Source: an uncultured Sphingomonadaceae bacterium
GTDB lineage: Bacteria > Pseudomonadota > Alphaproteobacteria > Sphingomonadales > Sphingomonadaceae
DNA: 64,000 bases
Assembly: GCA_903871605.1 (NCBI GenBank)
Contig: CAIQHF010000001.1
Coordinates: 1-64,000, forward strand
Direction: 5' to 3'
Shown piece after piece: positions 25,196 through 53,793 of the stretch; positions within the stretch are counted from its first letter, which is position 1, and each line of letters begins with the position of its first letter. Position numbers and translations under genes: made by a program. The notes under the pieces are model-generated. The model did not search any database. It was not told where the DNA came from and was given only the letters and a program-made list of their open reading frames with translations.

Positions 25196-25280
25196 CCGTT
25201 CGTGCCGAGCGAAGTCGGAACACTGCTAACGGGCGATATCCTGTGCTTCATGTCCCTCGACTTCGCTCGGGACGAACGGG
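25196..25280. repeat. A-family palindromic element upstream of methylmalonyl-CoA mutase
   Basis: Two inverted arms at 25196-25223 and 25251-25280 share CCGTTCGT-CCGAGCGAAGTCG-type sequence. The right arm is complete (ending CGGGACGAACGGG), the left more divergent at its end. The right arm runs into GGGGAG, which is the only plausible ribosome site for the mutase GTG at 25293. Confidence 0.85.
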
Positions 25281-33369: not shown

Positions 33370-33576
33370 TTACCAGCAGCGACGGATCCGATGGTGGTGA
33401 CGCCACACCCAGGTGCAGCGCGCATGGCCACCATGCCAGCCGTGGCCATGGCCGCCGCCATGCCAGCCGTTGCCGGGACGACCGTGGCCGGGCCCACCAT
33501 GGCGATCCGCCGAGGCGGGGGCGACGGCGATGCCGGTCACCATCAAAGCGGCGGCAGCGATTGCCAACAGGCGCAT
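33370..33576 (-). CDS. Small His/Gly-rich exported protein
   Basis: 68 residues from the ATG at 33576, which has AAGGAGA eight bases upstream. A clear signal peptide (LLAIAAAALMVTGIAVAPASA) is followed by a mature part of about 44 residues made of Gly-His-Gly-Trp repeats and ending in Arg/His with two Cys. It may bind metal in the periplasm. It is convergent with the CoA hydrolase gene and divergent from rnr. It is short, but signal peptide plus ribosome site make it credible. Confidence 0.7.
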   Translation of the reverse strand: MRLLAIAAAALMVTGIAVAPASADRHGGPGHGRPGNGWHGGGHGHGWHGGHARCTWVWRHHHRIRRCW

Positions 33577-33688
33577 AGTCTTCTCCTTGGATATGGCGGG
33601 ATGTTCCCCGTCCGTAACGAGCGATACGCGGTTAAGGTCCGTCTCGCCACAGGTGACGGCGCGGCTCCGGCGGTCTAGGCTGCGCGCG

Positions 33689-36028
33689 ATGCCCAAATCC
33701 CATGCCGCCCCCGGTCTTCCCAGCCGCGACCAGATCATGCGTTTCATCGAAACCAGCGACCAGCCCGCCGGCAAGCGCGAGATCGCGCGCGCCTTCGGGC
33801 TGCACGCGCAGGACAAGATCAAGCTCAAGGCGCTGCTCAAGGACATGGCCGACGAGGGGCTGATCGACCTCGGCCCGGGCCGCGCCTTCCACAAGCTCGG
33901 CGGCGTGCCCAAGGTGACCGTGCTGCGGATCGTCGACATCGAGGGCGACACTGTCGTCGCGGTGCCCGAAAGCTGGGTCGCCGAGGGTCAGCCCCCGCCG
34001 CGGCTGCGCGTGATCGAGCGCGGGCGGCGCCAGTCCGCGCTCGGCGTCGGCGACCGCATCCTCGCGCGCACCGAGGAGGCCGGGCGCGGCTGGGTCGCGC
34101 ATCCCTTGAAGAAGCTCGCCAAGGGCGAGGAGCAGGTGCTCGGCGTCGTCCACAAGGAGGGCGACCGGCTGTGGCTCAAGCCCGTTGACAAGAAGGAGCG
34201 GCACGATCTCGCCATTTCGGACGCGGGCGACGCCGACGTCGGCGATCTCGTGCTCGCCGAGAAGAGCGGCCGCCCGCCCAGGATCACCGCGCGCGTCGTC
34301 GAGCGGCTCGGCGATCCGTTCGCGCCGCGCAGCTTCAGCCTGATCGCGATCCACAAATATGGCATTCCCGACGTCTTTCCCGAGGCGGCGCTCGAGGAGG
34401 CGGAGCGCAGCGCCAGGCAGTCGCTTGGAGAGGGCCGCGAGGATCTGCGCCACCTGCCGATCGTCGCGATCGATCCTTCCGACGCACGCGACCATGACGA
34501 TGCGATCTGGGCCGCGCCCGACGAGGATGCGAACAACCCGGGCGGCTGGCAGGCGATCGTCGCGATCGCCGACGTCTCCTATTATGTCCGCCCTGGCAGT
34601 GCGCTCGACAGCCAGGCGAGGAAGCGCGGCAACAGCGTCTATTTCCCCGATCGCGTCGTGCCGATGCTGCCCGAGATATTATCGGCGGACGTCTGCTCGC
34701 TGGGCGAGGGCGCCGATCGCGCCGCGCTCGCCTGCCATCTGACGGTGGATGCCGAGGGCGAGGTCAAGGGCTTCCGCTTTTCGCGCGCGCTGGTGCGGAT
34801 CGGGGCGGTGATCGCCTATGAGGACGCGCAGTATGCGATCGATCAGGATTCCTCAGGCCGTTCGTCCCGAGCGCAGTCGAGGGACCAGGAGGCGGACGCG
34901 GCGCCTCTGTCCGGTGCCTCGACTGCGCTCGGCACGAACGGGGAGGGGGTGGATCGCGAAATCCTCCCCGCGCTCCGCAACCTCTGGGCCTGCTGGGCGG
35001 CGCTCGCCAGGGCGCGCGACAAGCGCGAGCCGCTCGCGCTCGATCTGCCCGAGCAGCGCGTGATGCTCGACGAGATGGGCCGGATCGCCTCGGTCGCGGC
35101 GCGCGAGCGGCTCGATGCGCACCGGCTGGTCGAGGACTTCATGATCGCCGCCAATGTCGCTGCGGCGCGCGCGCTCGAGAAGAAGCAGGCGCCGGTGATG
35201 TACCGCATCCACGAGACGCCGAGCCGCGAGAAGATGGTCGCGCTCAAGGAATATCTCGAGACGTTCGACCTGTCGCTGGCGCTCGGACAGGTCGTCCAGC
35301 CCAAGACCTTCAACCGCATCCTGCGCGAGGTCGAGGACCGCCCCGAGCGCGCCGAGATCATGACGCAGGTGCTGCGCACGCAGATGCAGGCGGTCTATTC
35401 GCCCGCCAATGTCGGCCATTTCGGGCTGTCGCTGGGCAGCTACGCGCATTTCACCTCGCCGATCCGCCGCTATGCCGATCTGCTCGTCCACCGCGCGCTG
35501 GTCGGCGCGTACAAGCTCGCGCCCGCGGTCGACGAGACGCGGCTGTCCGGCGAGGACGCCGCACGCATGGCCGATCTCGGCGAGATCATCAGCCGCGCCG
35601 AACGCCGCGCGATGGAGGCCGAGCGCGAGACGATCGACCGCTATGTCGCCGCCTATCTCTCGACGCGTGTCGGCGAGCTGGTCGAGACGCGGATCACCGG
35701 CGTGCAGCGCTTCGGCTTCTTCGCGACGGTCGAGGGGCTGGGCGGCGACGGGCTGGTGCCCGTCTCGACGCTCGGCGCGGAGCGCTTCAGCTTTGACGAG
35801 ACCGGGCATGCGCTGGTCGGCGACGACAGCGGCGAACGCTATACGCTGGGGCAGCATATCACGCTCAGATTGGTCGAGGCCAATGTCGCGAGCGGCGCGT
35901 TACGCTTCGAGCTGCCCGAGGGTGCCAATCACATGCCGATGCAGGGCGGCCGGCGACGTCCGGGTGCCAATCGGCCGATGGGTCGCCGCGGGCGGCCGGG
36001 CAATATCCGGCATCAGGGCCGGCGATGA
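33689..36028 (+). CDS. rnr: Ribonuclease R with repeat-encoded insertion
   Basis: 779 residues. Processive 3'-5' exoribonuclease that degrades structured RNA. Order: N-terminal winged-helix/cold-shock region, RNB domain, C-terminal S1 domain (about 670-745) and a basic Arg/Gly tail. The catalytic acids are visible as Asp262, Asp268, Asp270 and Asp271 in IDPSDARDHDDAI. Residues 390-418, at a variable loop of the RNB domain before ILPALRNLW, are encoded by a palindromic A-family repeat read in frame. The start ATG 33689 is followed by the family's helix-turn-helix region. An AI-2E type permease gene follows. Confidence 0.95.
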   Translation: MPKSHAAPGLPSRDQIMRFIETSDQPAGKREIARAFGLHAQDKIKLKALLKDMADEGLIDLGPGRAFHKLGGVPKVTVLRIVDIEGDTVVAVPESWVAEGQPPPRLRVIERGRRQSALGVGDRILARTEEAGRGWVAHPLKKLAKGEEQVLGVVHKEGDRLWLKPVDKKERHDLAISDAGDADVGDLVLAEKSGRPPRITARVVERLGDPFAPRSFSLIAIHKYGIPDVFPEAALEEAERSARQSLGEGREDLRHLPIVAIDPSDARDHDDAIWAAPDEDANNPGGWQAIVAIADVSYYVRPGSALDSQARKRGNSVYFPDRVVPMLPEILSADVCSLGEGADRAALACHLTVDAEGEVKGFRFSRALVRIGAVIAYEDAQYAIDQDSSGRSSRAQSRDQEADAAPLSGASTALGTNGEGVDREILPALRNLWACWAALARARDKREPLALDLPEQRVMLDEMGRIASVAARERLDAHRLVEDFMIAANVAAARALEKKQAPVMYRIHETPSREKMVALKEYLETFDLSLALGQVVQPKTFNRILREVEDRPERAEIMTQVLRTQMQAVYSPANVGHFGLSLGSYAHFTSPIRRYADLLVHRALVGAYKLAPAVDETRLSGEDAARMADLGEIISRAERRAMEAERETIDRYVAAYLSTRVGELVETRITGVQRFGFFATVEGLGGDGLVPVSTLGAERFSFDETGHALVGDDSGERYTLGQHITLRLVEANVASGALRFELPEGANHMPMQGGRRRPGANRPMGRRGRPGNIRHQGRR
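34858..34941. repeat. A-family palindromic element inside rnr
   Basis: Two 29-base inverted arms (34858-34886, 34913-34941) differ at only two positions, 9 and 26 of the arm. These two bases pair with each other in the hairpin of each arm (C-G in one, G-C in the other). The frame is kept through the element, giving about 28 extra residues. Confidence 0.93.
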
Positions 36029-51508: not shown

Positions 51509-53401
51509 TCAGATGTCCGCGTCGCCAGCCAGCTCCCTCAACTCGGAAAGCCGGCGGTCCGTTTCCTGTCTCTCGCGCTGGAGGTGCTGCTGCTCCTCCC
51601 ACGCCCCGTCATTCGTCGCATCGCCCAAACGAGCCGTCGCTTCGGCGATCCGGGCATCGAGCTCGGACCGCTTGACCATCACGTCGATGACTTCCCCCAG
51701 ATCGCGGCGCGCGCGTTCCAAATCCGCATCGCCGCGCTGGAAAGAAAAGGCAAGCCCGTTCGCACGGCCCCGCTTCTGTAGGAGATCAATCGCACCGACT
51801 CGCAGCAATATGGTGGTCAGCGCCTCGCCTTCAAGAACCGTGCCGCGCCAGGCCGCCTCGACGAGCGCGGATCGGAGCTGGTCGAGTGCTGGATCGGCGA
51901 AGACGAGATGCGACAATGCCTCGACATGCTCGGCGATCGCGGCGGGGACGCGCAGCAGCCCCGCAAGGAGCGCGCGTGCGGTCGCCGGATCGATGCCGGA
52001 GCGGCTCATCGCCCGGGCGGCGTCCGAGACGGGGCGGGGGGCGGGCCAGGCACCTCGCCGGTCACCGGGTCGGTCGCCGGTCCGGTCGCCGGGCTTGGCC
52101 GGCCGGCCGGCGGCGCGCGGCTGCCATTCGCGCCGGGGCGGGGCGAACAGCGCGTCGGCGCGCTGACGGAAGTCGCTGGCATAGGCGTAGCTGACGTCGC
52201 GGTCGGCGATCGCGCGGGCATGTTCGGCGAGCCGCTGCTTGAGCCCGGCGCGCGCCTCGGGCGTATCGAGCGGGAGCGCGGCCTGTTCGTGGCGCCACAG
52301 CCGCTCGACCAGCGGCTCGGGCGCCTCGAGCAGCGCCTCGATCGCCGGGGCGCCACCGGCGCGGACCAGATCGTCGGGGTCCTGCCCCGGCGGCAGCGTC
52401 AGGAAGCGCAGCGTGCGGCCTGGTGCAAGGAAGGGCAGCGCGCGGCCGATCGCGCGCACCGCCGCCTTCTGCCCGGCAGTGTCGCCGTCGAAGCACAGGA
52501 TCGGCGCGGGATCGAGCCGCCACAGCCGCTCGAGCTGGCCTTCGGTGAGCGCGGTGCCGAGCGGCGCGACCGCCTCGTCGATCCCCACGCCGGCGAGCGC
52601 GATCACGTCCATATAGCCCTCGACGACGATCACGCGCCCCGCCTTGCGGCTGGCGGGCGCGGCGCGGTCGAGGTTGAACAGCGTGCGGCCCTTGTCGAAC
52701 AGAACGGTCTCGGGCGAGTTGAGATATTTGGGTTCGCCGTCGCCCAGGATGCGCCCGCCGAACGCGATCGTCCGTCCGCGCGCGTCGCGTATCGGGATCA
52801 TCAGCCGGCCGCGGAACCGGTCATAGGGTTCGCGATTGGCCTCCTCGGGGCGGATCAGCAGCCCGCATTCGACCAGCTTCTCGTCGCCGACCGCCTTGAG
52901 CGCCGAGCGCAACGCGGTGCGGCTGTCGGGGGCGAGCCCGATGCGGAAGCTGCGCGCCTGCGTCGCCGAAATCCCGCGCTTCTGCAGATAGGCCCGCGCG
53001 CCGGCCCCCTCGGCGCGGCCGAGCTGCTCGACATACCAGGCCTCGGTCTGCGCCATGACGTCGTGGAGCGTCGAGGCGCGCTCGGCCTGTTCGCGGGACC
53101 GCGGGTCCTGCGCGGGGACGTCCAATCCGGCGGCCTGCGCCAGCTCCTTGACCGCATCGATGAACGGCAGGCCCTGATGATCGGTCATCCAGCGGATCGC
53201 ATCGCCATGCGCGCCGCAGCCGAAGCAATGGTAGAAGCCCTTGTCGTCGTTGACGGTGAAGCTTGGCGTCTTCTCGTTGTGGAACGGGCAGCACGCCTTC
53301 CACTCGCGCCCGGCGCGCTGGAGCTTGGTGGTCTTGCCGATCACGCCCGACAGCAGCGTGCGCGCGCGGAGCTCGTCGAGCCACTGAGGCGAAAGACTCA
53401 C
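51509..53401 (-). CDS. dnaG: DNA primase
   Basis: 630 residues from the GTG at 53401, which has a strong GGGAGGGGG site just upstream and overlaps the GIY-YIG stop by four bases (GTGA). It makes RNA primers for replication. The N-terminal zinc-binding domain has Cys38-x2-His41-x17-Cys59-x2-Cys62. The TOPRIM core shows VVEGYMDVIAL and FDGDTAGQKAA. The C-terminal third, the DnaB-binding region, contains a Pro/Arg-rich linker with GDRTGDRPGDR repeats at about 450-475. An ORF extending further upstream only mirrors the GIY-YIG gene. Confidence 0.96.
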   Translation of the reverse strand: MSLSPQWLDELRARTLLSGVIGKTTKLQRAGREWKACCPFHNEKTPSFTVNDDKGFYHCFGCGAHGDAIRWMTDHQGLPFIDAVKELAQAAGLDVPAQDPRSREQAERASTLHDVMAQTEAWYVEQLGRAEGAGARAYLQKRGISATQARSFRIGLAPDSRTALRSALKAVGDEKLVECGLLIRPEEANREPYDRFRGRLMIPIRDARGRTIAFGGRILGDGEPKYLNSPETVLFDKGRTLFNLDRAAPASRKAGRVIVVEGYMDVIALAGVGIDEAVAPLGTALTEGQLERLWRLDPAPILCFDGDTAGQKAAVRAIGRALPFLAPGRTLRFLTLPPGQDPDDLVRAGGAPAIEALLEAPEPLVERLWRHEQAALPLDTPEARAGLKQRLAEHARAIADRDVSYAYASDFRQRADALFAPPRREWQPRAAGRPAKPGDRTGDRPGDRRGAWPAPRPVSDAARAMSRSGIDPATARALLAGLLRVPAAIAEHVEALSHLVFADPALDQLRSALVEAAWRGTVLEGEALTTILLRVGAIDLLQKRGRANGLAFSFQRGDADLERARRDLGEVIDVMVKRSELDARIAEATARLGDATNDGAWEEQQHLQRERQETDRRLSELRELAGDADI

Positions 53402-53748
53402 GACTCCCCCTCCCGAGACGCGAGCGAATCCCTCTCTCCGTTCGTCCCGAGCGAAGTCGAGGGACGTTCGGCCGGCGGCTTGGCGAAGAAGGAGAGTCGC
53501 GCGTAGTCGCCAGCGATCCCGGCCTCTTTCTTCGCCCGCGACCAAGGCTTCAACCGACGCTCCATCGCCAGCGCTTCCTCGCGCGTCGGCGCGTCGCCGC
53601 ACCACATGCGCGTGACCGGCCGCCGCGTCGATGTAAACGCGCCGCCCTCGCCACGCTGATGCTGGGCGAGGCGGCGTTCGAGATCATCCGTGTGGCCGGT
53701 ATAATATCGGCCGTCCGCGCATCTCAGGATGTACACCCAGAATGCCAT
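53398..53748 (-). CDS. GIY-YIG family nuclease-like protein
   Basis: 116 residues. A small stand-alone GIY-YIG domain (UvrC/Intron-type nuclease fold): Val5-Tyr6-Ile7 and Tyr16-Thr17-Gly18 stand for GIY and YIG. The DLERRLAQHQRGEGG helix carries the catalytic Arg, and Glu63 in AMERRLKPWSRAKK is the expected metal-binding acid. Residues 95-104 ([10 protein letters not shown]) and the following tail are encoded by an A-family repeat arm. An inverted partner arm lies just upstream of the start, so the gene sits between the two. It splits the usual yqeY-dnaG-rpoD order. Biological function is unknown. Confidence 0.85.
   Translation of the reverse strand: MAFWVYILRCADGRYYTGHTDDLERRLAQHQRGEGGAFTSTRRPVTRMWCGDAPTREEALAMERRLKPWSRAKKEAGIAGDYARLSFFAKPPAERPSTSLGTNGERDSLASREGES
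53438..53465. repeat. A-family repeat arm inside the end of the GIY-YIG gene
   Basis: Single 28-base arm (CCGTTCGTCCCGAGCGAAGT then CGAGGGAC), read in frame as the protein's C-terminal tail. Its inverted partner is at 53765-53793. Confidence 0.9.
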
Positions 53749-53764
53749 CGTTGCTCCCGGAGCC

Positions 53765-53793
53765 GGTCCCTCGACTTCGCTCGGGACGAACGG
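53765..53793. repeat. A-family repeat arm upstream of the GIY-YIG gene
   Basis: Single 29-base arm (GGTCCCTCGACTTCGCTCGG then GACGAACGG), the reverse complement of the arm at 53438-53465. The two arms enclose a 299-base segment holding most of the GIY-YIG coding sequence. Confidence 0.9.

Follow-up and report, generated by a model that had tools for sequence, protein, structure and literature searches.

A REPIN-like doublet in frame within the ribonuclease R gene of an uncultured Sphingomonadaceae bacterium, and REP-bracketed GIY-YIG genes as candidate mobilisers

The ribonuclease R gene (rnr) of an uncultured Sphingomonadaceae bacterium contains an in-frame palindromic element, very probably one of many REPIN-like doublets scattered through the genome and read here as a passenger that the gene tolerates. 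This reading is supported by membership of the element in a repeat family, by relatives in which the site is empty, by its position in a loop, and by the recurrence of inserts at that loop.

The palindromic element in rnr

The window, meaning the whole stretch of 64,000 nucleotides that was analysed, includes these features of the gene and its element.

33689..36028, plus strand: rnr, ribonuclease R, 779 aa, with the in-frame element inside (ORF, TIGR02063, Pfam)
34858..34886, plus strand: left REP arm, GTCCC..GGGAC version (inverted-repeat and arm scans)
34887..34912, no strand: inter-arm spacer of the rnr doublet
34913..34941, minus strand: right REP arm, GTGCC..GGCAC version, inverted (inverted-repeat and arm scans)

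The initial annotation of this DNA reported a palindrome of about 28 residues in frame within rnr, which the present analysis confirms. The arms are 29 nt each, are separated by 26 nt, and are complementary at 27 of 29 positions (93 %), and the ORF (33413..36028) stays open across the element. The product is identified as RNase R by TIGR02063 (601 bits, against a cut-off of 597.85) and by the presence of the Pfam domains RNB, CSD2, and S1. Numbered from the ATG at 33689, picked as the start from alignment with relatives, the element corresponds to residues 390-418. The element region folds at -74.8 kcal/mol (z -7.16), with none of 200 shuffles as low; each arm folded alone with DNA parameters was no better than its shuffles (z 0.64 and 0.59). 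The two arms differ by C/G at arm position 9 and G/C at position 26 and, as had been noted, each pair base-pairs within its own arm.

In an AlphaFold2 model (38 sequences, mean pLDDT 78), helices are placed at 377-393 and 423-445, and pLDDT is below 50 at 393-418; residues 393-418 are predicted to be a disordered loop linking two helices of the RNB domain. Among solved structures, the fold is closest to that of 5xgu, RNase R of E. coli. Residues 265-272, which form the catalytic DARDHDDA motif, are elsewhere in the sequence. The tri-helix wedge, residues 477-534 of B. subtilis RNase R (PMC10901742), was ruled out as the site of the insert, the loop aligning to approximately B. subtilis 375-390.

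It is proposed that a doublet was copied into rnr and would have been tolerated because its net length kept the frame, the frame used has no stop, and the site, a predicted disordered loop, is away in sequence from both the catalytic motif and the wedge. The doublet would then be read as a linker of about 28 residues, and the peptide presumably stays in the mature RNase R and is neutral.

The repeat family in the source genome

A search of both strands of the source genome (4.28 Mb, 54 contigs) with the doublet gave at least 71 matches, 40 of 118 candidates having been scored. Arms were surveyed at a cut of 17 bits in 39 stretches and the window, L081 being dropped as a duplicate of a copy in the window. 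This recovered 91 arms, 84 of them in 42 inverted doublets and seven unpaired, four of the latter belonging to two GIY-YIG units (see below). Each doublet consists of two inverted 28 nt REP hairpins, and the spacer between them is 27-28 nt in most cases. Lengths of 83 nt (n=18) and 84 nt (n=10) together account for 28 of the 42, the others being 70-82 nt. Arms begin with CCGTTCG (consensus CCGTTCGTnCCGAGCGnAGTCGAGGnAC) and are split at position 11 into C type (66) and T type (25); among scattered arms of the source genome, position 17 distinguishes the two types as well (Fisher P 6.5e-5). A second doublet of this family is present in the window, with no spanning ORF in the codon-usage scan.

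25196..25279, no strand: second same-family doublet (arm scan)

Across 45 distinct arms, 93.3 % of stem cells are paired, against 16-54 % in slid-stem controls, and there are 47 double-change cells against 18.6 in shuffled data, with none of 500 shuffles reaching the observed value. This stem covariation is a property of the family and is silent on the rnr copy after it landed. It had been suggested that the covarying arm differences in rnr mean that the structure was kept after insertion. This does not hold, as a GTCC arm is paired with a GTGC arm in 23 of the 42 doublets. The asymmetry is the family norm, is therefore no evidence for selection after insertion, and was ruled out as a signal of it.

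No target duplication was seen at 41 of the 42 doublets and one of 2 nt was seen at the other; in view of this, the case for insertion is made solely from presence and absence. Flanks of approximately 10 nt are C-rich (pyrimidine) on the left and G-rich (purine) on the right, inside genes and outside alike. As an extension of the stem, these flanks show no clear copy-specific pairing above shuffles. Openness of the arms in all six frames was considered as a special adaptation; 60 of the 91 arms are open, but so are 27 % of shuffled arms, and therefore the point is not pressed.

Comparison with known repeats

REPINs of Pseudomonas, as described by Bertels and Rainey (2011; PMC3116915), are similar in being inverted hairpin doublets with conserved arms and a less conserved spacer of set length, with compensatory changes and dozens of copies. 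Here likewise, 84 of the 91 arms are in paired doublets and the hairpin is marked by compensatory changes. In contrast to REPINs, the arm sequence is another one, several copies are in frame in core genes, and no RAYT gene was found in the source genome, where PF01797 (Y1/RAYT) has no match at E 1. Among the ten genomes of the genus, PF01797 was found in one, G008, in ORFs of 148 aa. In the wider family, 20 RAYT-like loci (of 35 matches) have no CCGTTCG-family arm. Across 199 genomes, PF01797 is present in 31, the element in at least 32 (best four candidates per genome scored), and both in nine (Fisher P 0.058). With none in the source genome and no family arms at the RAYT-like loci fetched, RAYT was rejected as the mobiliser of the doublets.

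CGTC REPs have been described in all orders of the Alphaproteobacteria (Di Nocera et al., 2013; PMC3733652), with an unpaired CGTC tag, A-T in the first two stem positions, and a tail that is mostly CCA. Like the repeats here, they are alphaproteobacterial, are mostly head-to-head doublets, are found in some ORFs, and are described without RAYT association (PMC3733652); in S. alaskensis and E. litoralis, such ORFs include those of tRNA synthetases and of a tRNA pseudouridine synthase. Judged by that published description, the arm here differs in starting with CCGTTCG, in outer stem pairs of G-C/T-A rather than A-T, and in having no CCA tail, and the consensus falls outside the CGTC superfamily. 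It is likewise without the GTAG end of the GTAG REP superfamily.

The rnr loop in relatives

In the ten genus genomes, a CCGTTCG doublet is present in the rnr loop of the source genome, its sister species G009, and G004. G008 has a different insert, giving a 92 aa loop, and the loop is short in the remaining six (the contig of G006 stops within rnr but spans the loop). Had all relatives carried the same residues, this would be an old loop and not an inserted repeat; because the loop is empty in several aligned relatives (G001, G002, G003, G005, G006, and G007), it is an inserted palindromic element, as first proposed. The peptide encoded by the left arm is wholly different between the source genome and G009, which counts against a conserved peptide function.

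A set of 90 RNase R sequences was assembled from the source genome, nine other genus genomes, and 80 named loci. Inserts of at least 15 aa are present at the loop in 17 of the 90, with one at own residue 246 (a further insert of about 50 aa in L125), one N-terminal, and three in the C-terminal tail. The loop is the sole internal site with recurrent inserts of this size. Twelve of the 17 loop inserts are palindromic and belong to at least three distinct families, 11 having long inverted repeats (scores 17-27) and the other, in L130, having arms of the CCGTTCG family at a low score of 10. The inserts of L107, L111, L112, L118, and L158 have no long inverted repeat (scores 6-7); that of L158 resembles a remnant of the L129/L141 insert. 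By sequence, the families are CCGTTCG, CCCCTCCC..GGGAGGGG, CTCCCCGGAACGGGGAGG, and Novosphingobium CCCCCTCCTC, the last of which may, from its sequence, be related to CCCCTCCC..GGGAGGGG.

A tree of 89 of the sequences, with the loop columns removed and the partial G006 omitted, requires at least eight changes of presence, or nine when counted by repeat family (LG+G4, short search; family labels assigned in this analysis). When the inserts of G008, L125, L129, L100, L095, L097, and L130 were searched for in their own genomes, six of the seven recurred. For the L100 insert, six matches were found in its genome, only the insert itself being among the matches listed, and the type recurs in others of the seven. 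The expectation that such an element would be unusual in RNase R was not upheld, since in relatives several repeat families have inserted at this loop on repeated occasions.

It is most improbable that the loop is simply old and variable and the palindrome a product of chance or local expansion rather than a mobile repeat. Loop length does vary without palindromes, being 5-18 aa in 73 of the 90 sequences, and one clade (L107, L111, L112, and L118) shares a longer, non-palindromic loop. However, the rnr insert belongs to a family of 42 doublets in its own genome, and recurrence of the inserts of other species in six of seven cases argues likewise for mobile repeats.

Two observations were made on individual records. 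The RNase R genes of L103/L101 (Sphingomonas sp. UV9/PP-CE-3A-406) and of L097 and L098 are near-identical and differ by the loop insert; L103 retains an apparent single arm, which is likely to be a deletion remnant. L106, from a contig labelled Bacillus sp. 2B10, groups beside Sphingomonas hankookensis in the tree, and the record is probably mislabelled or contaminated.

Copies in other core genes

At least nine of the 42 doublets are in frame in seven core genes: valS (2), coaBC, dnaE, mtaB (2), ligD, birA, and rnr, the two in valS and the two in mtaB being side by side. Intragenic copies were called by codon-usage scan, reading of translations, and Pfam, and the scan may miss some. In the six genes besides rnr, Pfam domains flank the insert on both sides. 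Long ORFs over doublets L047, L053, and L060 have no Pfam domain and were taken as non-coding controls. ORFs cover 88.6 % of the window (rough training set), so that nine or fewer of 42 in genes has P of about 1e-23 under random placement, indicating that gene insertions are mostly purged. The comparison with RPE made in the initial annotation is apt as an analogy. In both, a palindromic repeat is in frame in ORFs likely to encode functional proteins (RPE as cited in PMC3733652), whereas here the codon-usage scan places most of the recovered doublets outside genes; the likeness drawn is one of position.

The frame of reading is shared by eight of the nine intragenic doublets (PFV.S.VE..TS.LGTNG type; binomial P 0.001, equal frames assumed), and the peptide could therefore be favoured beyond mere tolerance. 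Only the rnr copy departs from this, with its right arm in the usual frame of the family and its left arm in another.

In birA (L076:198-1220), a second insert beside the CCGTTCG doublet, PLPSGVRG...PLPTLSLEGEG, looks palindrome-derived. It is absent from the eight genus relatives with birA listed, and its translation recurs elsewhere in the source genome and G009.

The same genes were compared in relatives, with 20 stretches inspected and the remainder judged from the spacing of matches. The doublet of coaBC is present in the source genome and G009. Translations show it in G001 and G008 too, where it is decayed or interrupted (scores 11 and 12), and the six others have none. There are two doublets in mtaB in the source genome and G009 and one in G008, a CGTC-type REP in G003, and an empty site in G004. 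For ligD, the doublet is present in the source genome and G009, with a CGTC-type REP in G008. For dnaE, the doublet is again in the source genome and G009, with another repeat in G008 and an empty site in G001. In valS, there are two doublets in the source genome, one in G008, and none in G001. The C- and G-rich flank tracts of valS and dnaE are absent from the single empty relative compared, and may arrive together with the insert.

Copies in genes seldom persist, yet this and other palindromic repeats have returned repeatedly to a small set of tolerant loops and linkers in core proteins. Selection on the protein may not be the only influence, as the insertion machinery could itself prefer the DNA of the recurrent sites, although this is unlikely. 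The pyrimidine-rich left and purine-rich right flanks of genic and intergenic copies and the paired adjacent doublets in valS and mtaB would fit such a preference; the use of the same loops by repeat families with unlike ends speaks against it. The flanks, moreover, may come with the insert, as their absence from one empty relative in valS and dnaE suggests, and lack clear copy-specific pairing.

It is also very unlikely that the hairpin has been co-opted in the rnr message as a preferred substrate of RNase R, feeding back on the level of the enzyme. The very stable fold of the coding strand and the description of RNase R as degrading structured RNA (PMC12320835) would fit such a role; however, the same doublets are found in six unrelated core genes where this logic fails, and a palindromic loop insert, as assigned in this analysis, is absent from 78 of the 90 RNase R sequences. 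For the rnr copy, the tolerated passenger is preferred.

GIY-YIG genes bracketed by REP arms

53398..53748, minus strand: small GIY-YIG nuclease ORF, 116 aa, PF01541 E 3.3e-16, its end reading through the arm 53438-53465
53438..53465, plus strand: REP arm, one end of the GIY-YIG unit (arm scan)
53766..53793, minus strand: REP arm, other end of the GIY-YIG unit, 28/28 complementary to 53438-53465

Identical inverted CCGTTCG-family arms bracket a 356 bp GIY-YIG unit in the window (53438-53793). This unit is C type, as are the arms of the rnr doublet, which are one base (position 17) off its arms; a T-type unit is present at G000:C54 in the source genome. Both have the bracketing of a REPtron; the scatter of such arms over the host genome is established for the CCGTTCG family. 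REPtrons, consisting of a RAYT gene and REPs (PMC3733652), likewise have a nuclease gene flanked by REP arms and related arms scattered in the genome, the nuclease being a Y1 tyrosine transposase there and a GIY-YIG nuclease here. The window unit looks resident and inherited, since the source genome, G001, and G009 share its flanking genes. It is approximately 19 kb from the rnr element, and in G004 and G003 a related GIY-YIG gene is likewise 16-21 kb away from rnr.

In the ten genus genomes, 47 GIY-YIG matches gave 38 small genes once nine in UvrC-sized frames were set aside, two of these serving as controls. Inverted flanking repeats with a score of at least 16 were found at 29 of the 38 small genes (which include near-copies, five in G001 and three in G008), at neither of the two UvrC genes, and at one of 400 random sites, which were sampled in the window and the named rnr loci, a set of genomes that is not quite the same. 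The fragmented assembly of G006 gave no GIY-YIG match. In a class-wide search of 115 genomes, represented by 29 best-matching loci, one per genome and one from the source's own family, 16 passed after strand-aware placement (15 before), against one of 128 places elsewhere in these loci. Named records that passed are S. parapaucimobilis (16), M. bullatum (18), and M. aquaticum (40); S. paeninsulae (9, in a frame with a stop) and Acidiphilium (9) did not. Two Bacillaceae yazA-type genes (8 and 9) and two Vibrionaceae genes (9 and 9) did not pass either. In L306, from another member of the class, and L316, from Methylobacterium aquaticum, the inverted flanks round the GIY-YIG gene are very long (scores 54 and 40) and are apparently REP arms in a row.

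By patterns chosen after inspection of the units, the 45 passing units were typed as 12 of GAGC..GTCGA (source-family) type, 22 of CGTC type, and 11 others. On a GIY-YIG tree of 66 of 69 rows, including 12 source-type and 21 CGTC units, the two types need two changes, against approximately 10 in shuffled data (0 of 500), although with 73 columns resolution is weak and near-copies inflate the clustering. The sole misplaced unit, L307, has a long arm that looks mixed. The five units of G001 are 94-99 % alike. In the pairs L263/L267, L265/L267, and L266/L267, the likeness is close to arm-to-arm, and in other pairs it extends about 20-150 nt past an arm. The units of G004 and G009 match arm to arm at 75 %.

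Doublet matches on both strands, with at most the best 40 candidates scored, number at least 58 in the source genome, 65 in G009, 55 in G008, and 44 in G001, and each of these four high-copy genomes has a bracketed source-type unit. There are nine matches in G004, seven in G006, two in G003, and none in G002, G005, or G007. The association of copy number with presence of a unit stands at one of 210 permutations (one of 252 if the truncated G004 unit is counted, two of 120 without G008), to be read with the variant arm GAGCTTGTCGA in the G008 units, the decayed arms in G004 and G003, and the shared ancestry of the ten genomes.

Mobilisation of the doublets

On balance, the bracketed GIY-YIG nucleases may well be dedicated mobilisers of CCGTTCG and CGTC REPs in the Alphaproteobacteria, with the doublets, including that in rnr, as their non-autonomous copies. 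The REP-arm-bracketed genes would move the doublets, or would have moved them in the past, which is the less sure step of the proposed mechanism. As the mobiliser of the rnr element, the unit is a candidate put forward from sequence comparisons, on the basis of a strong association and a plausible enzyme.

GIY-YIG proteins are familiar chiefly as nucleases of homing and of repair. It is conceivable, with a lower probability, that the genes are passengers or homing-type parasites of the REP doublets and that something else moves the doublets. The doublet spacer is no obvious remnant of the ends of a GIY-YIG unit, and the one-base difference at position 17 between the rnr arms and the window unit is also compatible with such passengers. 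Against this, arm type tracks the GIY-YIG tree, the G001 units multiply roughly arm to arm, and copy number in the genus goes with the presence of bracketed units, all of which favour the nucleases as mobilisers.

The CGTC REPs seem to be without a dedicated transposase, for which an early disappearance of REPtrons is one suggestion (PMC3733652). In contrast to that survey, REPs of the CCGTTCG family and of CGTC type are here both found to bracket GIY-YIG genes. Among the titles and opening parts of abstracts listed, with subscription journals mostly outside the search, no paper was found that connects REPs with GIY-YIG genes or RNase R with palindromes; two papers mention both GIY-YIG and RAYT, in passages that make no link between the two (PMC9465073, PMC10928387).

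If the proposal is true, GIY-YIG REPtrons would be autonomous elements, and the enzyme for CGTC REPs that eluded the survey of 2013 would be at hand. With a REP-bracketed gene whose arm types match its tree, the question of the mobiliser becomes testable with one purified protein. The loops refilled by different repeats in RNase R, ValS, DnaE, MtaB, CoaBC, and LigD also mark out, as a natural experiment, the places at which core proteins can take up approximately 25-80 additional residues.
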